Under the pieces are notes generated by a model. It had not been told where the DNA came from. It was given only the letters and a program-made list of their open reading frames with translations, and searched no databases. The position numbers and the translations under genes were made by a program. From positions 1 through 24,575 of IMG/VR virus record IMGVR_UViG_3300027631_000127: 24,575 nucleotides of DNA. One strand, 5' to 3'. Source of the DNA: a virus. Of this stretch, positions 3,102 to 16,107 are shown one piece after another (position 1 is the first letter of the stretch; every line of letters begins with the position of its first letter).

Positions 3102-3470
3102 CTATTCGTCATATACTGTTTGATCCTTTTGAGCAAACATCTTGATGAATTGACCCGCTTTAGCGTTTGCTTCGTCTTCGATCTCACCACCAATGTCTGG
3201 CGGTTTAACTTCTAGGCGTCCGTCTTCATATTGTTTGTGATGTACTAACTCATGTGCCACACTTCTCATTACATCTACAAGCATTCTATTTTTGGCATTA
3301 ACCTTGATTATCTTTTCAGATTTAGTATAATCATAGCTTGCTGTCGTTTTAAGATCTTTTCTTCCATTTTGGACAACAACCTTAGGGGTAGACTTTAATT
3401 TAAGTTCACCCTTTACGAATTTAACAAACTCGGTTAATTTTTCTTTTTGTTGGTCATTTAGAAACTCCAT
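3102..3470 (-). CDS. HExxH metallopeptidase-like protein
   Basis: 122 residues. HELVH at residues 73-77 (context VAHELVHHKQYEDG) is a zincin HExxH site, followed by GGEIEDEANAKAG (about 94-106), which supplies a candidate third zinc ligand glutamate. An N-terminal helix and a basic beta-rich stretch precede it. This architecture matches small phage zincins of unknown substrate, so a peptidase or minimal SprT/IrrE-like fold is likely. It has no signal peptide and should act in the cytoplasm or the virion. It follows the 3483-3716 gene by 12 bases and has an ATATTTATAA element 3 bases before the start. A second HExxH protein lies at 12832-13230. Confidence 0.8.
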   Translation of the reverse strand: MEFLNDQQKEKLTEFVKFVKGELKLKSTPKVVVQNGRKDLKTTASYDYTKSEKIIKVNAKNRMLVDVMRSVAHELVHHKQYEDGRLEVKPPDIGGEIEDEANAKAGQFIKMFAQKDQTVYDE

Positions 3471-3473
3471 ATC

Positions 3474-3483
3474 TTATAAATAT
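3474..3483 (-). promoter_or_regulatory. ATATTTATAA start-proximal element (class B)
   Basis: It lies in coding orientation 3 bases before the ATG at 3470, filling the short gap after the upstream gene's stop. Confidence 0.45.
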
Positions 3484-3716
3484 CACAACATTTCTTCTTC
3501 TGGTAGTTCATTGTTCTTTGAATACTCAAATATTAGCTCGGTTATAAACTCTTCATCTATTTCCGTGTCATCGTCTAATATTGTGGGTGAGTAATATTCA
3601 ATATCTTCCTTATTGAATTCAATAACTCTATAAAAGTCGTCACCGTCTTTTTTTGTGGAGAATTCGACATACAATCCGCCGTTATCCTCATTAATGTAAA
3701 ATTCTCGTATAATCAT
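3483..3716 (-). CDS. small acidic hypothetical protein
   Basis: 77 residues, very acidic, beginning MIIREFYINEDNGGLYVEFS and ending in an Asp/Glu-rich tail (DDDTEIDEEF, PEEEML). The N-terminal half predicts beta strands. No motif or family was recognised. It is the first gene of a two-gene minus-strand unit with the metallopeptidase-like gene and is divergent from the gene at 3802. Acidic small phage proteins of this type are often DNA mimics or host-takeover factors, but nothing here shows that. Confidence 0.7.
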   Translation of the reverse strand: MIIREFYINEDNGGLYVEFSTKKDGDDFYRVIEFNKEDIEYYSPTILDDDTEIDEEFITELIFEYSKNNELPEEEML

Positions 3717-3801: not shown

Positions 3802-4125
3802 ATGTTAGATTGGTATTCCATAGAATATTTGTACCCGAAAGCCTTTAAAAGGTTTAACGATAATATGTTTCCAAATATTGGGGTGTTGAGTATTTCAACG
3901 ATTGCCACATATGATTTAAAGAAGCTTTATAGATTCTTTGATAAAGAAGGTGTATATCTAACAATTGAAATGTATAATCCTAAACAATGGGTTTTTAGTA
4001 TTTCATTAAATAATGGAATTGTTTTTGGGCCGGCTCAATCGTCAAAAGAAAATCGAGAAGATATTGAGAAAGATGGATTCTTTGAATGTTTCAGGATATT
4101 AGAAAAAAAGTTAATCAATGAATGA
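3802..4125 (+). CDS. hypothetical phage protein
   Basis: 107 residues, beginning MLDWYSIEYLYPKAFKRFND. It is aromatic-rich, with a compact alpha/beta pattern (YDLKKLYRFFDKEGVYLTIE, then WVFSISLNNG) ending in an acidic helix. I recognise the general type as a small protein often found in Bacteroidetes phages, but no function is known to me. It is the first gene of a three-gene plus-strand unit: its end overlaps the next gene by 8 bases, and that gene overlaps the third. A TATATTAG box sits directly upstream, which groups it with the apparent early genes. Confidence 0.75.
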   Translation: MLDWYSIEYLYPKAFKRFNDNMFPNIGVLSISTIATYDLKKLYRFFDKEGVYLTIEMYNPKQWVFSISLNNGIVFGPAQSSKENREDIEKDGFFECFRILEKKLINE

Positions 4126-4438
4126 AGGTATATTTATGAATATGTCAGTGTCATTTCTTTTACAAGCTACTAGAGTACTTCACGTCGGTAACTATGATGA
4201 TGATGAGGTTAGAATGATATATGATTACATAAGAAACGTTGACAATGATATGATTTTTGAGTATATTAATAAAAAGACAATATTAAGTTACAATAATGAT
4301 TTAGAATTATTAATCGAAATTATCGATAGAATGATTGAAATATTAGAAGAAACGGAAGAATATGAAAAATGTTTAGTATTAAAAAATAAAAAAGAGAGAT
4401 GTCTCCAAGAAAACAAAAAACAATTAAAATATGAGTAA
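4118..4438 (+). CDS. hypothetical helical protein
   Basis: 106 residues, mostly alpha-helical and charged. The C-terminal part (IEIIDRMIEILEETEEYEKC, followed by LVLKNKKERC) has the spacing of a UVR-type helical hairpin or short coiled coil, but the match is too weak to name. The start at 4118 overlaps the previous gene by 8 bases; ATGs at 4136 and 4142 are alternatives. It is co-transcribed with its neighbours on both sides. Confidence 0.7.
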   Translation: MNEGIFMNMSVSFLLQATRVLHVGNYDDDEVRMIYDYIRNVDNDMIFEYINKKTILSYNNDLELLIEIIDRMIEILEETEEYEKCLVLKNKKERCLQENKKQLKYE

Positions 4439-4580
4439 TGTATTTAAAATGACCGAAGAAGAAAAAAAGAAGATATTAGAAAAACATAAGGATGCAACAA
4501 AAAATCATTATGTTAAAAAAGATGAAACTAAAAAAGGTTTACAACAACCAGACAAACCAGAAAATAAAAAAACCTCCTAA
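4431..4580 (+). CDS. 49-residue small charged protein
   Basis: A short frame starts at the ATG at 4431, overlapping the previous gene by 8 bases, and ends at TAA 4578-4580. It encodes MSNVFKMTEEEKKKILEKHK followed by a Lys/Gln/Pro-rich tail (KKGLQQPDKPENKK). This helix-plus-basic-tail layout is one I have seen in small phage proteins of unknown role. The operonic overlap, coding-like composition and placement directly before a terminator support it as real. The stop codon lies in the loop of that terminator hairpin. Confidence 0.65.
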   Translation: MSNVFKMTEEEKKKILEKHKDATKNHYVKKDETKKGLQQPDKPENKKTS

Positions 4581-4597
4581 TTGGAGGTTTCTTTTTT
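4570..4597. terminator. bidirectional intrinsic terminator between convergent genes
   Basis: AAACCTCC (4570-4577) pairs with GGAGGTTT (4583-4590) around a five-base loop and is followed by CTTTTTT. The run of A on the left gives a U-tract on the other strand. Stop codons of both convergent genes (TAA 4578-4580 plus, TAG 4579-4577 minus) fall at the loop. Confidence 0.85.
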
Positions 4598-4819
4598 ATT
4601 TAAGTACTTCGTAAGAACTATATAACACAACCAAAAACAACCTGAAATAGAATAAAAAACGATATCGGCTACCCAATATGAACCACTCATGTCCATTATT
4701 AATTTGAATAAAGCATCGTAGCCAAATGGGAGAAAGAACATCGCTAACATTAGTGATATATCTTTGTATAGGACCAGTCTCTTTTCCTTGTTCTTTAAAT
4801 CTTTTATTTTGTTCACCAT
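4577..4819 (-). CDS. small two-helix membrane protein
   Basis: 80 residues. A charged N-terminus (MVNKIKDLKNKEKR) is followed by two hydrophobic helices (ISLMLAMFFLPFGYDALFKL and WVADIVFYSISGCFWLCYIV) and a basic KYLNKKETSN end, so an inner-membrane protein with two passes is expected. A holin is possible on size and topology, but the endolysin is far away and nothing else supports that. The start at 4819 is the only in-frame ATG before a stop. Its last codons lie in the terminator. An ATATTTATAA element sits 49 bases upstream, in the gap after the glycosyltransferase operon. Confidence 0.75.
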   Translation of the reverse strand: MVNKIKDLKNKEKRLVLYKDISLMLAMFFLPFGYDALFKLIMDMSGSYWVADIVFYSISGCFWLCYIVLTKYLNKKETSN

Positions 4820-4886: not shown

Positions 4887-6245
4887 TTAACTTTTATAAA
4901 CCCCATATATTTGAAATAATGTTTTTTCAACATCTAAACCGGATTGTGGGTATGATTCGTGTGATAGTGAATCTAATATTCTTTTATAATATTCTAATGG
5001 TTTGGTTTTTATTATTCTTCTACTAATAATGTATTGAGCCCCAGGTGTCATATAAATTGGATATGTAATATCAAATCCAATTGATTTAGCATATGATTCT
5101 ACTTGCTGATTGATTGCATCATATTCCATAGTTAACTGGTGCAAAACACCCAATGGTTTAAATTCTGTCTTGAAGTCAAAATTATTTATTAAATTAATAA
5201 TATCATTACAGTGGTCTTGTGGCTTACCTTGTAAAAATACTAGATATTCTGGTAGGTTATCATAGTTGTTAACAATGTGATTAAAAAACGTGTGGCCTTC
5301 TCTACCAACATTTGGTAAGTTATTTGAAAATAGATGGTTATCGTCAATATTTTTATTATAAACTGTTACTTTATAATTAAGTTCTTTTATCCATTCAAGA
5401 TCTTCATTGTATCTAGCAACAACAACTTCCAAATCTTTTTTGGTTGTGAATAAATCAATATATTCTCTCCAACCACACTGTATTAAATTGTAATTATCCG
5501 GATTCGTTAGATAAGTGAAATCAAATATTTTTTCATCGCTACCAACAAACCCTTTTGATATACAATCTAACGCTGTGTTTTTAAATAATTCACAAATCTC
5601 TTCTATGCATTTTTTAGGAACAAAAACAGAGCCACCTTGAATATATCTCATTTGAGAAAAGGCGTGAAATTTATATTGATCATTAGCCACCCTAACATAT
5701 GGGTGATGGCAAAAGAACGTAACTTTATTATTATCTAATTCATTAATTTTTTGGATATCTGGCCACTTTAGGTTTTTTTCTGGTTGATCATTTCTTATAA
5801 CACCGGCATCCGCCCAAACATATAAGTCAGCATTAAACAAATTCTTTTTTGCTGAATCTAAAATATAAAAAAGCTTAGCAAACATTACAACATTATATAA
5901 TGGTTTACTCATCTCTGGGACATCAAATTGAACATCTCTTTTAAACTCATCACTAGTCATTAAATTATTTAATGGTTCATAGAATGTTTTATAACCTTCT
6001 ATTGATTCTAATGGTTGAATAATTAAAATAGTTTTTTCTAATTTAGGGTCTACCTCTTTTCTATAGTTTAAGATATCTTCCTTAAACTTCTCCTCTGTGT
6101 ATATAATAAGATCGGTATCTAAATAAAGTAAGTTCCTCATCCACCACAGATACGTGTGATAGGACATTGTAAAATTATCCCATTTATCTCTACCGATGTC
6201 AAATATGGCCGTTACGATGGCCGTTTTCTTTATAACCATTCCCAA
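4887..6245 (-). CDS. HtrL/YibB-type glycosyltransferase fused to DUF3431
   Basis: 452 residues, apparently two domains. Residues about 5-270 match the HtrL/YibB family: TAIVTAIFDIGRDKW at the start, LYLDTDLIIYTEE, then YVWADAGVIRND, where WADAG supplies the metal-binding acidic residues of a GT-A-type fold. Residues about 275-450 match DUF3431: VVARYNEDLEWIKEL, VTVYNK, NVGREGHTFFNHI, NNYDNLPEYLVFLQGKPQDH. Both families occur in polysaccharide loci; their chemistry is poorly defined, so transfer of a sugar is inferred for the first half and the role of the second is open. It is the last gene of a four-gene overlapping operon (16-base overlap with the previous gene). An alternative start is Met3. 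Confidence 0.85.
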   Translation of the reverse strand: MGMVIKKTAIVTAIFDIGRDKWDNFTMSYHTYLWWMRNLLYLDTDLIIYTEEKFKEDILNYRKEVDPKLEKTILIIQPLESIEGYKTFYEPLNNLMTSDEFKRDVQFDVPEMSKPLYNVVMFAKLFYILDSAKKNLFNADLYVWADAGVIRNDQPEKNLKWPDIQKINELDNNKVTFFCHHPYVRVANDQYKFHAFSQMRYIQGGSVFVPKKCIEEICELFKNTALDCISKGFVGSDEKIFDFTYLTNPDNYNLIQCGWREYIDLFTTKKDLEVVVARYNEDLEWIKELNYKVTVYNKNIDDNHLFSNNLPNVGREGHTFFNHIVNNYDNLPEYLVFLQGKPQDHCNDIINLINNFDFKTEFKPLGVLHQLTMEYDAINQQVESYAKSIGFDITYPIYMTPGAQYIISRRIIKTKPLEYYKRILDSLSHESYPQSGLDVEKTLFQIYGVYKS

Positions 6246-6985
6246 TTTATTTTTTGATTCTTATGTAGAATGTTAACCTCGTTAACATCAAAGTAATTTG
6301 ATGTATTTTCAGGAGTTATTATTGTTTTCAATTTTTGACCTTCGTAATTTAACACAGTTGGAACCATTCCTTCATGATATGCATGATATCCATTTAAATT
6401 GTAATCCATAATTGTTTTTAACGCCTTATTTGAAAATCTGGTTGTTGGAAAAAATGATCCGAATAATTTGGTCATGTCTTTTGGTAAGTTGGCATCAACC
6501 CCTGGGAATCTTTTAAACCATTCAGTTCTAGAGTATGTTCTATCATCAATCATAGGAACCTCTGGTTGAGTTTCAACATCAGTATTTTTAAATAAAAAAT
6601 ATGTTAAGAAGTCCGCATCCTCGTTTTTAAATGAATCAAAAAATAAATTCCAGTTATCCATTTTAATATCATCATCAAAAAACCAATAATAATCATAATT
6701 CGGATGTTCCATATAAAAATTTATCATTCTTAAATGCGCATAAAACCAAGCAATATTTCTATTACCGTAAGAATTCCACCAATTAAATTTACTAACCTCT
6801 TGTGTGAAGTTTAATTTCTCTTTTAATTGCTGTTCGGTAAATGTAAACCCCTTATTAAATGTAAGATCTTTTGTTACATCAACGATCACAAACTTATCAC
6901 TATTAAGTACTGGTTCATTTAGCCATTCTTCAATAAACGGTCCATATAGGTCGCTAGTTGAACAAACACATATTGCATTATTCAT
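6230..6985 (-). CDS. GT-A-like glycosyltransferase
   Basis: 251 residues. The protein starts with a beta strand (NAICVCSTSDLYGPFIEEWL), and YDYYWFFDDDIKMDNWNLFF holds a DDD triplet at 104-106, the expected DxD metal-nucleotide-sugar site of a GT-A fold. YGNRNIAWFYAHLRM before it is the usual nucleotide-binding helix region, and the late HEGMVPTVL could supply the catalytic acid. I cannot assign a CAZy family. No membrane segment is visible, so it should act in the cytoplasm. It overlaps both neighbours in the operon (8 and 16 bases), which implies coupled translation. Confidence 0.75.
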   Translation of the reverse strand: MNNAICVCSTSDLYGPFIEEWLNEPVLNSDKFVIVDVTKDLTFNKGFTFTEQQLKEKLNFTQEVSKFNWWNSYGNRNIAWFYAHLRMINFYMEHPNYDYYWFFDDDIKMDNWNLFFDSFKNEDADFLTYFLFKNTDVETQPEVPMIDDRTYSRTEWFKRFPGVDANLPKDMTKLFGSFFPTTRFSNKALKTIMDYNLNGYHAYHEGMVPTVLNYEGQKLKTIITPENTSNYFDVNEVNILHKNQKINWEWL

Positions 6986-7802
6986 ATTCTTTAGTTATTA
7001 TTTTTTTCCATTCATCAACTCTATTAAATTGGTGAACCATATCATATTTTATTCCAGACTGTGTGTAAACAACACCGTCTTCTTTTAGTTCTGGTATTCC
7101 ATAACCCTTTCTGATTATTGCATTTTTAAGCCCCCATGATTCAAAAAATTGTGTTGGTCCAGATGATTGACAATGCATCGCCCATCCCTCATCTAATGAG
7201 AAGTTTTTTAATCTTTCTATTTCATTATTCTTTACCATGATAATAAGTGCGGCTTGATCCTTAATATTGTGACCATCTAAACTATTTTCACACATATGAT
7301 CAAGTTTATAATATAACTTTATCAACGATTCTTTTTTCCCACCAATTATACCAGAACAAACAATTTCTGTTTGCATACAAGCTGTCGTTTCATTTGGGAA
7401 TACTTTATTGATAACATCAGCATTCCAAGGTTCTTCACAAACTAAGATACCCTCCTTACTAATAAAGATATCGTTATTTTCTAAATCCATTTTATTAAAC
7501 GGATCTGATTGAAATAAAACATCAAACACATCTGTGATTAAAAAGACATCACCATCAGATTGTTCTAAGAAATCTTTAGTGTGTTTTAATCTTTTATTAT
7601 TAATATACCAAGTGTCCTCAACGGTTACTTGATAATATTTTATGTTTAGATCAATACATGTTTGTATATCTTCATCGGTAGCATTAGCCGCTATTAAAAC
7701 CACATCACCATCAGAATGTCTTTTAAAACTTTCTGACCAAACTTTTATTTTTTGTTTGTTTAGTGAAATATTGTTTGATAATCCTGTTAATATTTTTTTC
7801 AT
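6978..7802 (-). CDS. GT-A-like glycosyltransferase
   Basis: 274 residues. VFLITDVFDVLFQSDPFNK (about 86-104) is the hydrophobic strand plus DxxD arrangement seen in GT-A enzymes of the procollagen galactosyltransferase and GMA12-like kinds. IVCSGIIGGKKESLI and DGHNIKDQAALIIM later in the chain match the acceptor-side substructure of those enzymes (a GxxGG turn and a D-Q helix). The exact sugar and acceptor are unknown. The start ATG shares one base with the stop of the upstream gene (TAATG), and the end overlaps the next gene by 8 bases. Confidence 0.75.
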   Translation of the reverse strand: MKKILTGLSNNISLNKQKIKVWSESFKRHSDGDVVLIAANATDEDIQTCIDLNIKYYQVTVEDTWYINNKRLKHTKDFLEQSDGDVFLITDVFDVLFQSDPFNKMDLENNDIFISKEGILVCEEPWNADVINKVFPNETTACMQTEIVCSGIIGGKKESLIKLYYKLDHMCENSLDGHNIKDQAALIIMVKNNEIERLKNFSLDEGWAMHCQSSGPTQFFESWGLKNAIIRKGYGIPELKEDGVVYTQSGIKYDMVHQFNRVDEWKKIITKEYE

Positions 7803-9052
7803 TATAATGACCCCTCAATTTTATTTAACCAACCCTTTGATTCCGAATGTGGCCAGACAATCCATTTAGTTGGTTTTTTTTCCGTATTAAATGTTCTCCA
7901 TATTTTTATAAAATCATCTGTTGTTCTAAGAGCACTTTTAATTTCCTCAGAAGTCATATCTTGTCTATGTAAGGTTCCACCAACCTCATCTTCAAATATT
8001 ACGGCCCAAAAATTATAATCGTTATCTATAAATGAATTTCGATGAATGTCTATACAATGTTTAAATATTCTTAAAAACGAATCATTAAACTCTTGTCCAT
8101 ATAGTGGTGGGTTTGGAGCAATATTATTATCTAGTGTGAATTTTTGAACGGCTCTTTTTTTAAAGGACACCCCAGCATACCTTTCATAATCCTCAACACT
8201 TCTAACTTTACCAAAATCATATATACCAAAATCAATATCTTTGATAAGCCCGTCCATCTCAAAAAGTTTTCTATTCCTTAAATGTGAATTACCATTTTTT
8301 TCACCCCAAAACTTATCATCATCCCACTGTTTTATTCTATTCTTTCTAGTATATTCATGCCAAGCAATTATTTTGTGTGGATGAAATAGATCATAACCCC
8401 AGGTGTATGCCCTAACAGCAATTGAGATCTCCTCACCATGGAAATAGTATTCAGGATCATGTGGTACTTCTTTAACAAAAGCCCCGCCAGTAAACGCAAA
8501 GTGCGCAGAATAGAATCTAGCCGGAATTGGTTCTGTCAATTCTTTGTGATTATCAATTGATGCAGGTAAAAAGAATACTGCGCCTTCTGGTATAAATCTA
8601 TCGAAGTTCATTTTCCACGGAATCATACCTCTACCATCTGGATCATTATCTGGGTCATAAGAAGAAATGTAGCTTGTTAATAATGGTTTACCATAACCTT
8701 TATCTTGTAAACCATTATACATTGTTATTAATTCTTCGTCCCAATTTTCAATAAATCTGTGATGTGAATCTAATTGTAAGGTATACTCCTCATCGGTATA
8801 ACTCTTTTGTAGTTGATTTCTGGCCCAACAAGCCCCTTTAGATAACTCATATGGTATATCCGTTATTTTAAACCTATCGTCGTTTAAATACTCATCTAAA
8901 TTATCCCAAACATCATCTTTTGAATGTTGCCAAGCAATTGCAAATACTAAGTTCTCAGGATTTTTTGCTTTAGAAATACAATCCTTTAATGTTGGAATTA
9001 ACTGTGGGTCTCGATATGACGCAATTTGAATGAAAATCTTTCTATTTCCCAT
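7802..9052 (-). CDS. Skp1-type GlcNAc-transferase family protein
   Basis: 416 residues. IFIQIASYRDPQLIPTLKDC at the N-terminus, SKGACWARNQLQ (71-82), QLDSHHRF with the DxH metal site (D95, H97), FTGGAFVKEVPHDPEYYFHG and the following EE/W(H)EYTR segment together define the family of the Skp1 GlcNAc-transferase (Pfam GlcNAc, GT60-like). In the founding eukaryotic enzyme GlcNAc is added to hydroxyproline of a protein; in phages the acceptor is not known. Residues after about 290 form an extra C-terminal domain ending WIVWPHSESKGWLNKI. It heads the glycosyltransferase operon. Upstream lies a TATATTTTAG stretch (9076-9067) that may be its promoter; no ATATTTATA element is present. Confidence 0.88.
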   Translation of the reverse strand: MGNRKIFIQIASYRDPQLIPTLKDCISKAKNPENLVFAIAWQHSKDDVWDNLDEYLNDDRFKITDIPYELSKGACWARNQLQKSYTDEEYTLQLDSHHRFIENWDEELITMYNGLQDKGYGKPLLTSYISSYDPDNDPDGRGMIPWKMNFDRFIPEGAVFFLPASIDNHKELTEPIPARFYSAHFAFTGGAFVKEVPHDPEYYFHGEEISIAVRAYTWGYDLFHPHKIIAWHEYTRKNRIKQWDDDKFWGEKNGNSHLRNRKLFEMDGLIKDIDFGIYDFGKVRSVEDYERYAGVSFKKRAVQKFTLDNNIAPNPPLYGQEFNDSFLRIFKHCIDIHRNSFIDNDYNFWAVIFEDEVGGTLHRQDMTSEEIKSALRTTDDFIKIWRTFNTEKKPTKWIVWPHSESKGWLNKIEGSL

Positions 9053-9162: not shown

Positions 9163-9561
9163 ATGAGCTACCTACCTAAAATCCAAGAAATAACAGAAGG
9201 TATTATAAAAACCTTAGTTGATGACAATTACTTTACTGATTTTGAGATATCTAGTCAAGACTATGCCAGAAAAAGAATATCAGACGAGTTGACAAAGAAA
9301 TTCTTGGAGAATGGGTTGGATAATGAGGATGAAGGGTATTTTAATGAAGATGAGTTTGAGGTTATGTTAAAAGAAATTGTGGCAGAAGACCTTTTAAGAA
9401 GTTTACAGAAAAGTGGTTTAATAAATTCTTATGAGGATGATGAAACGGAGGAGGTTTTCTTTTTAAGTGATTTGGGTAAGAAAGAAATTCATAATTTAAC
9501 CGACATTGAGGATGTTAAAGGATTAAGAGTATTTCTAGATAATGAAGAAGAAAACGAATAA
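9163..9561 (+). CDS. acidic hypothetical protein
   Basis: 132 residues, strongly acidic. It begins MSYLPKIQEITEGIIKTLVD and is mostly helical. Residues about 75-113 (EIVAEDLLRSLQKSGLINS, acidic turn, EVFFLSDLGKKEI) have the helix-helix-wing layout of a winged-helix fold, but the charge argues against simple DNA binding. No family was recognised. It is a single-gene plus-strand unit convergent with the 9585-9914 gene, 23 bases away. The upstream TATATTAG box places it with the apparent early genes. Confidence 0.7.
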   Translation: MSYLPKIQEITEGIIKTLVDDNYFTDFEISSQDYARKRISDELTKKFLENGLDNEDEGYFNEDEFEVMLKEIVAEDLLRSLQKSGLINSYEDDETEEVFFLSDLGKKEIHNLTDIEDVKGLRVFLDNEEENE

Positions 9562-9993: not shown

Positions 9994-11064
9994 ATGCACG
10001 AAATGACTGAACAACTCTATGATTTTGATGATCTTTTAATTGAACCGGCCGTTTTGTCCTCAATTAGATCTAGGAGCGAAATTAACACAAGAACCACATT
10101 TGGTAATCTACCATTAATGACGGCCCCAATGGATACCGTTATTAGTGAAGATAATTTTCATTTATTTAAGAACCAAGGTATCTTACCAGTATTACCCAGA
10201 ATACCCAACCCAACATCTGACTGGGTGGATTATAATCATTTCCTTTCATATAGCTTAACTGATTTTGAAAGGTTATTTCTTAGAGAAAGGTTAGTTGTCC
10301 CAAGCAAAAGTAAAATACTCGCTTTAATTGATATCGCTAACGGACACATGTTAGATTTATATGAATCAGCAAAGAAAGCCAAAATAATGTATGGGGATGA
10401 CATGTGCTTGATGGTGGGTAACGTGGCGAATCCTAGTACATTTCACAAATATTGTGAAATAGGTGTTGATATGGTTAGAATTGGTATCGGTAATGGTGGT
10501 GGATGTTTAACAACCGTTCAAACTGGTATTGGATACCCTATGGCGTCCTTAATAATGAAATGTAGTGACATTCAGAAAAAGAAACATTATTTGAGTAACA
10601 GTAAACCATACAAAACAAAAATAGTTGCTGATGGTGGTTTTAAGAAATACTCAGACATCATTAAGGCTTTAGGATTGGGAGCCGATTATGTTATGTTAGG
10701 GTCTATGTTAAATAAGTGCTTAGAAAGCGCCGGAGAAACAAGTAAGGAGAACTATGAGGTAATACATCAATACACTAAACAAGCCAATGATATGTTTATG
10801 GCAGACATTCCTCTTTATAAGAACTTTAGAGGTATGAGTACCAAGGAAGTCCAAAAATCATGGGGTAGGGATGAATTAAAGACATCTGAAGGAGTTACAA
10901 GAAGAAATGAAGTAAAGTATACCATCGAGAGTTGGTGTCAAAATTTCGAGGATTATTTGCGTTCAGCAATGAGTTATAGTGGAAAAAAAGAACTCCACCA
11001 GTTTATTGGTGGAGCTAACTTTAATATGATATCTCAAAACTCATTTAAGAGATTTAGTAAGTAA
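9994..11064 (+). CDS. IMP dehydrogenase / GMP reductase family protein
   Basis: 356 residues, a single TIM barrel without CBS domains. Landmarks in order: YDFDDLLIEP (9-18), APMDTV (44-49), DIANGH (113-118), GNV (142-144), GIGNGGGCLTTVQTGIGYP with catalytic Cys171, ADGGF (212-216), GADYVMLGSML (229-239), FRGMS (278-282) and a SEG flap motif (298-300). TGIGYP, MLGSML and LESAGE look more like GMP reductase than IMP dehydrogenase, but CLT around the cysteine is closer to the latter, so the reaction is left open. Either would adjust guanine nucleotide supply during infection. It is transcribed from a host-like TATATTAG box, and its stop abuts the convergent RHH gene with no spacer. Confidence 0.88.
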   Translation: MHEMTEQLYDFDDLLIEPAVLSSIRSRSEINTRTTFGNLPLMTAPMDTVISEDNFHLFKNQGILPVLPRIPNPTSDWVDYNHFLSYSLTDFERLFLRERLVVPSKSKILALIDIANGHMLDLYESAKKAKIMYGDDMCLMVGNVANPSTFHKYCEIGVDMVRIGIGNGGGCLTTVQTGIGYPMASLIMKCSDIQKKKHYLSNSKPYKTKIVADGGFKKYSDIIKALGLGADYVMLGSMLNKCLESAGETSKENYEVIHQYTKQANDMFMADIPLYKNFRGMSTKEVQKSWGRDELKTSEGVTRRNEVKYTIESWCQNFEDYLRSAMSYSGKKELHQFIGGANFNMISQNSFKRFSK

Positions 11065-15660: not shown

Positions 15661-16107
15661 ATGAAAAAATATATTTTAACAGAATCACAGGTAAAAAGAG
15701 TTTTGGATCAAATATTGAATGAGCAAATGTCATCATCAAAACCTTCAAGTGTTTCTGGAACAATTAGAAAGGCCGAAACAATTCAGGGTGATATTGATAC
15801 AATACAAAATTTAAAAACTAAAAAGGTTAAATTAGTTGTGTTAGGTTTCCGTTCATCAGTTTCAAATGCTGACGTTTATAATAAAAATTATAAAAGACCA
15901 ACAGTAGTTGGTTTAATTGCTGGAACTCCTATTGATAAAAATGCAACAGGAAAACAATTTGATAATGACACAATTATTAAATTAAATAATGGCGCAACAT
16001 TGGTATTCGGTATCGTTGGTGTTGATAGAAGATATGCCGAAGCAAATGGTGGTTTAAGTCTCACAAATGAGGGTGGTAAGCTTCGTTTAGATTTTGCTTG
16101 GGATTAA
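15661..16107 (+). CDS. tagged protein of unknown function
   Basis: 148 residues. The first 21 form the clearest tag: ILTE at 5-8, the helix SQVKRVLDQ, and ILNE at 18-21. Then comes a Ser-rich linker (MSSSKPSSVSGT) and a compact beta-rich domain (KKVKLVVLGFRSSVSNADVY, PTVVGLIAGTPID, ATLVFGIVGVDRRYA). No family was recognised for that domain. Tag removal after Glu21 would leave about 127 residues. It follows the membrane coiled-coil gene by 1 base and overlaps the convergent GIY-YIG-like gene by 4 bases. Confidence 0.78.
   Translation: MKKYILTESQVKRVLDQILNEQMSSSKPSSVSGTIRKAETIQGDIDTIQNLKTKKVKLVVLGFRSSVSNADVYNKNYKRPTVVGLIAGTPIDKNATGKQFDNDTIIKLNNGATLVFGIVGVDRRYAEANGGLSLTNEGGKLRLDFAWD

Follow-up and report, generated by a model that had tools for sequence, protein, structure and literature searches.

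The viral sequence analyzed here (IMG/VR virus record IMGVR_UViG_3300027631_000127, positions 1 to 24,575; "the window" below means all 24,575 bases) carries four overlapping genes on its minus strand between positions 4887 and 9052. They form one allele of a hypervariable island that lies between fixed flanks and keeps its first gene constant. We consider it probable that the island serves virion O-glycosylation and acts on tail proteins with threonine/proline (Thr/Pro) repeats. The first open reading frame (ORF1) would be a cytoplasmic GT60-type enzyme that adds the first sugar, probably N-acetylglucosamine (GlcNAc), to Thr or serine (Ser) in the mucin-like Thr/Pro-repeat linkers of tail proteins, and ORF2, ORF3, and ORF4 would next act on the glycan by lengthening or modifying it. 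Keeping the first gene constant would preserve the link to a constant type of acceptor, while the downstream genes would be traded between related phages by recombination at the conserved edges, so that the sugar coat changes as happens with O-antigen loci. The benefit most likely lies in altered contacts of the tail surface or in shielding. More broadly, we see an even chance that GT60-type enzymes in bacteria and phages initiate a prokaryotic mucin-type O-glycosylation on Thr/Pro-repeat proteins, and that large phages switch tail "serotype" via a recombining cassette island. Since the IMG/VR record consists of just this fragment, genome-wide checks were made instead on a 251 kb contig (G001, locus L004), whose ORF1 is 96% identical.

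Clustering of the genes neighboring ORF1 showed conserved flanks with exchanged contents between them. There are 28 distinct islands with both edges in view, 26 of them filled and two empty (L398 and L399), and ORF1 comes first in 25 of the 26. The islands hold 112 extender genes belonging to 55 families, and 201 of 300 island pairs have no extender in common, at a median identity of 72% for the flank protein c12. For example, L378 and L387 have c12 proteins that are 97% identical, ORF1 homologues that are 39% identical, and no extenders in common; their DNA similarity of 80–86% ends about 100 bases into ORF1 and returns right past the last cassette gene, with one 95-base similar patch inside the otherwise dissimilar cassette. 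Between L366 and L372, ORF1 and the terminal YibB gene are retained and the intervening genes are swapped. We count as demonstrated the families and folds of the enzymes, the island with its exchange of contents between related phages, and the association with Thr/Pro-repeat proteins described below. Among the 30 island proteins scanned, some of them matching below the Pfam cut-off, are glycosyltransferases (GTs) of the GT2, GT4, GT7C, GT10, GT11, GT25, and PLOD_GT types, as well as an FkbM methyltransferase and a carbamoyltransferase. An earlier reading of the window from its letters alone (the original prediction) had remarked that it holds no nucleotide-sugar synthesis gene; this is so, and such genes are present in other islands (UDP-galactopyranose mutase, a DegT aminotransferase, and a GDP-mannose-dehydratase-like enzyme, again with some matches below the cut-off). 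These comparisons draw on 50 loci from viral contigs scanned with ORF1 and on a flank-gene search, in which a single-sequence query gave few loci and an alignment query with c12 gave 80 sites; most contigs compared are fragments, and related phages are not independent samples (G098 and G099 are near duplicates).

ORF1 (also "G0"; 7802..9052, minus strand, 416 aa) matches the Pfam profile PF11397 (GlcNAc) with an E value of 3.9e-70 and 237.5 bits (cut-off 21), and PHROG 24687 "glycosyltransferase" with 577 bits, so that its earlier identification as a Skp1-GlcNAc-transferase-type protein holds. Its DxH motif is D95-S96-H97, and D95, H97, and the C-terminal metal-binding histidine H232 are invariant in 18 aligned phage homologues. 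The replacement of DxD by DxH is a known variation in GT27 and GT60, two families that O-link sugars to Ser/Thr of polypeptides (PMC7185993). Protists use GT60 enzymes to initiate mucin-type O-glycans on domains rich in Ser/Thr; the Skp1 enzyme is a cytoplasmic relative, and Gnt1, the founding enzyme, acts on hydroxyproline (PMC8724618). We propose that ORF1 is an initiating polypeptide GlcNAc-transferase. A PDB sequence search with ORF1 and ORF2 returned nothing useful. A search of 50,697 phage records found an ORF1 homologue only in XacN1, CM1, and RAS14 (45–50% identity). In XacN1, a carbamoyltransferase gene comes next, and two ORFs separate it from the gene of a YibB protein. Eight loci (L045, L046, L047, L049, L019, L022, L028, and L040) have two ORF1 homologues each, in most of them arranged in tandem and with the second about 40% identical, which suggests two initiating enzymes that differ in specificity.

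ORF2 (6978..7802, minus strand, 274 aa) and ORF3 (6230..6985, minus strand, 251 aa) matched no Pfam or PHROG family, and tblastn of both against phage records found no matches. Their AlphaFold (AF2) models are confident (mean predicted local distance difference test score, pLDDT, of 95.1 for ORF2 and 94.2 for ORF3) and show clear GT-A folds, in agreement with the two "GT-A-like" proteins originally predicted. The ORF2 model lies closest to the glucosyltransferase domain of LH3/PLOD3 (8one_A; Z 18.1, root-mean-square deviation 3.1 over 210 residues in the VIA comparison), with Mimivirus R699 at Z 17.9 and GT6 enzymes within about 1.3 Z of the best. Its DVFDV motif is conserved in 35 homologues. 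The GT_PLOD profile PF25342 does not match ORF2, and is matched by a different island gene (L011:11934-12677). The ORF3 model is nearest to B3GalT5 of GT31 (8zwp_A, Z 11.7), with other GT-A families tied within 1 and no GT31 Pfam match; its FDDD motif is conserved, with D104 and D106 invariant in 40 homologues. Both are GT-A glycosyltransferases by fold, ORF2 with a retaining-type and ORF3 with a GT31-like fold, and we propose that they act as extenders. ORF4 (4887..6239, minus strand) has two domains: an N-terminal HtrL_YibB domain (PF09612, E 6e-24, residues 7–266, 85.5 bits against a cut-off of 24.1), as foreseen from the letters, and a C-terminal DUF3431 domain that had gone unmentioned (PF11913, E 4.9e-13, residues 275–348, 49.7 bits against a cut-off of 25, spanning only positions 2–76 of the 219 in the profile). 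A DUF3431-like domain is encoded on its own in L041, where its gene lies between the ORF1 and ORF2 homologues, and its occurrence alone there and fused to YibB in ORF4 suggests one common pathway. ORF4 is a probable extender or glycan-modifying enzyme. Overall, we infer the donor sugars, the acceptor chemistry, and the order of transfer, and donor sugars in particular are unreadable from sequence.

The candidate acceptors come from the tail region of G001. Downstream of its baseplate wedge gene (a PHROG match) are proteins with long Thr/Pro/Ser repeats, one of which (569 aa) consists largely of such repeats and another of which matches a virion structural PHROG. The 26 flank-relatives comprise 17 contigs with PF11397, of which 12 contain a TPTPTP-coding motif, and nine without PF11397, none of which contains it. 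When only contigs holding the tail gene are considered, the motif is present in all 10 of those with ORF1 and in none of the 5 that lack it (p 0.0003; G005 and G006 were counted as ORF1 carriers from the locus scan). The G+C of the negative tail-gene contigs (0.32–0.37) is not below that of the positives (0.30–0.33). Thr/Pro runs are found in the orthologous tail genes of G001, G093, and G105, and not in those of G107–G109. In G105, the island site is empty, PF11397 is located elsewhere, and the motif is kept; there the PF11397 gene adjoins a virion-type gene whose relatives in G001 and G090 bear Thr/Pro repeats. Another tail-region protein of G001 (154065-158186, L067; 1373 aa) has Thr/Pro linkers and, by eye, repeats resembling those of the SprB gliding adhesin and of cadherins, which were possibly borrowed from a Flavobacteria-type host.

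The same association is seen in isolated phages and in bacteria. XacN1 has 29 motifs, many of them within ORF174, 180, 190, and 232-236, and RAS14 has 19; of 12 control phages, 11 have none (including RaK2, GAP32, PBECO4, and T4) and P-SSM2 has one. Proteomics of XacN1 found at least two glycoproteins, for which the authors proposed phage GTs including ORF334; the main text does not give the glycosylated sites (PMC5852040). An earlier contig comparison, with PF11397 in 9/44 motif contigs and 1/30 control contigs with Asp/Glu repeats (p 0.033), was suggestive only, given host and size differences, and was replaced by the tail-module-matched comparison above. For 50 bacterial genomes with PF11397, the roughly 12 kb surrounding the gene held 159 motifs where 1.6 were expected, at 14 loci where 1.5 were expected, and a reversed-pattern control gave 0; the fair figure is that for all 80 bacterial loci, 15 with the motif against about 2.5 expected, the expectation being extrapolated. 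Bacterial PF11397 genes adjoin Thr/Pro-repeat genes at L617, L619, L586, L583, L645, L605, L608, and L624, where a bacterial mucin-type system is possible.

Several points weigh against this choice of acceptor. The 50 bacterial genomes were picked after Thr/Pro runs had been seen and included every locus with such runs. Thr/Pro-repeat proteins also occur without ORF1, in 35 of the 44 motif contigs longer than 30 kb (many of these being fragments or unrelated), and G084 has seven motifs with no ORF1 found. The association tests draw on phylogenetically linked phages and so lack independence, and the phages without ORF1 that served for comparison are more distant relatives. The tail genes lie outside the window and were seen in the 251 kb relative, and the tie between enzyme and acceptor is one of association, as read from genomes.

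On one hand, the founding enzyme of the family offers a different acceptor: phage 2-oxoglutarate (2OG)/Fe enzymes would hydroxylate collagen- or Pro-rich proteins of the virion, and ORF1 would put GlcNAc on their hydroxyproline, as in Skp1. Skp1 glycosylation shares with the cassette a soluble cytoplasmic first enzyme followed by separate extenders, and the fold of ORF2 resembles an LH3/PLOD3 domain that acts on a hydroxylysine-linked sugar. The original prediction had held that a prolyl hydroxylase elsewhere in the genome would be informative, and the nearest relative, G001, does have three tandem PF13640 proteins. G002, G093, G096, and G102 also have PF13640, which occurs in 5/17 ORF1-positive flank-relatives and in no ORF1-negative one. 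However, the other 12 of the 17 have no match, including contigs of 203–310 kb with Thr/Pro-repeat tails, and neither do the complete genomes of XacN1 and RAS14, PF13640 being the sole hydroxylase family searched. In Skp1 itself, a single hydroxyproline is modified. Because PF13640 is not general among ORF1 carriers, we disfavor hydroxyproline as the general acceptor, give it a slim chance, and favor Thr/Ser; in some phages, hydroxylation may come on top of this.

On the other hand, the sugars need not be destined for virion protein, and the original prediction had named phage DNA and host surface molecules beside it. The island could remodel a surface glycan of the host, either O-antigen or capsule, while the phage infects or persists in pseudolysogeny, and so exclude superinfection. 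Such a role would fit the turnover and contents of the island, which resembles bacterial O-antigen and capsule loci: in both, glycan genes are swapped between fixed flanks, and both include nucleotide-sugar enzymes and methyl- and carbamoyltransferases. Variable GT clusters of jumbo cyanophages have been interpreted in this way (PMC7824862). We regard this as unlikely, as the constant first enzyme comes from a family of polypeptide Ser/Thr transferases, and as such a role does not predict how strongly the enzyme goes with Thr/Pro-repeat proteins in phages and bacteria alike. In addition, no flippase (Wzx), polymerase (Wzy), or lipid-phosphate/lipid-linked initiator was found among the 30 island proteins scanned, which come from part of the islands. 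Phage glycosyltransferases that act on DNA are well known, and the enzymes could similarly glycosylate modified bases and guard against restriction. One extender, in L006, weakly matches the TET-associated glycosyltransferase TAGT (E 0.0063, below cut-off). The modified-base check suggested earlier gave no Tet_JBP match in 19 contigs; this is weak evidence, as the control genomes also had none and the search covered only this one family of base-hypermodification genes. Since both the enzyme family and the genomic association indicate protein substrates, a role on DNA is very improbable. Of the three acceptors first named, the motif association thus favors virion protein, in the form of Thr/Pro-repeat tail proteins, and the other two are disfavored; the sequential building of a glycan, also part of that prediction, is supported.

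Mucin-like O-glycosylation of tail proteins would have its closest known parallel in the protist system (GT60 pp-alphaGlcNAc-transferases of Trypanosoma cruzi and Dictyostelium; PMC8724618), with the same initiating family, Ser/Thr-rich acceptors, and extension by further GTs. The first enzyme of the island differs in being phage-encoded and, presumably, cytoplasmic and cotranscribed with the extenders, with tail proteins as putative acceptors. In bacterial O-antigen and capsule loci, the initiator is likewise different, as here it is a polypeptide transferase. Mycobacteriophage GTs modify virion proteins, at capsid and tail-tube C-termini, and the glycans shield (Freeman et al. 2023, as cited in PMC12619734); here the first enzyme is of the GT60 type, the proteins concerned have Thr/Pro repeats, and the genes form a multi-gene island whose contents can be swapped. 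Among large phages, the cassette ORF330-334 of the jumbo phage XacN1 is comparable, with its ORF1 homologue, carbamoyltransferase, two ORFs, and YibB (PMC5852040). Moraphages, large phages infecting Bacteroidota, have several core GTs (PMC12619734), and the capsule-like clusters of cyanophages (PMC7824862) are another jumbo-phage comparison. In the available parts of these three accounts, neither a design with a constant first gene and a variable rest nor a Thr/Pro acceptor link is described. Likewise, we found no prior account of the island design or of a mucin-like Thr/Pro tail link in the literature on phage virion glycosylation and GT clusters, subscription journals and preprints being outside the scope of the search.

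If this is true, prokaryotes and viruses have a counterpart to the mucin-type O-glycosylation known from animals and protists, and large phages possess a locus that switches the antigens of the particles they build. A family labeled merely "glycosyltransferase" in phage databases would gain a named substrate, with Thr/Pro repeats as the acceptor motif, and the same association offers a function hypothesis for uncharacterized bacterial PF11397 genes. The reasons for tail sugars (adsorption, shielding, or host mimicry) would become approachable in XacN1, an isolated phage that reportedly has glycoproteins.

Regarding the layout of the cassette, the four genes overlap as first described, by 1 base (ORF1/ORF2), 8 bases (ORF2/ORF3), and 16 bases (ORF3/ORF4). 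The last value applies if ORF4 starts at the TTG at 6245 (6245-4887, 452 aa); the ATG at 6239 is the more likely start, and gives an overlap of 10 bases. In the 96% relative, ORF1 is longer and stops 40 bases ahead of ORF2. Overlaps of this kind are commonplace in operons, and we dropped the idea that they signal tight coupling, as their exact lengths are not conserved in that relative. Upstream, the fixed flank is c4 (9163..9561, plus strand), which has the same divergent position in closed islands. The fixed downstream flank starts with a small gene of the c49/c24 type (4577..4819, minus), which opens the constant downstream region, followed by c14 (4118..4438, plus), c10 (3802..4125, plus), c11 (3483..3716, minus), and c12 (3102..3470, minus), the anchor with which the 80 sites were collected. 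Beside the island, at 9994-11064, is an inosine monophosphate dehydrogenase (IMPDH)/dehydrogenase-like protein (PHROG 9582) that has moved or been lost in several relatives.

Two further features were observed in the window and in G001. Many otherwise unrelated proteins have a short N-terminal tag like MKKYILTESQVKRVLDQILNEQ, including those of the window genes at 15661+, 20726-, 20762+, 2467-, 9914-, 1474-, 13246+, 17165+, and 21231+, and of genes in G001 at 0-34 kb (L060-L061). In G001, the tag pattern is N-terminal in 13 of 253 proteins, where 0.3 would be expected, and occurs elsewhere only twice. Internal proteins of T4 carry a capsid-targeting leader that is cleaved by a protease, and by analogy the tag resembles such a leader. 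G001 also has a second modification cluster amid tail-fiber-like genes (212726-234706, L070-L071), in which we recognized by eye several probable GTs, five or six SPASM radical-SAM-like enzymes, one adenosine 5'-phosphosulfate (APS)-kinase-like and one nucleotidyltransferase-like protein, and sulfotransferase-like genes, together with three 2OG oxygenases that match PF13640.

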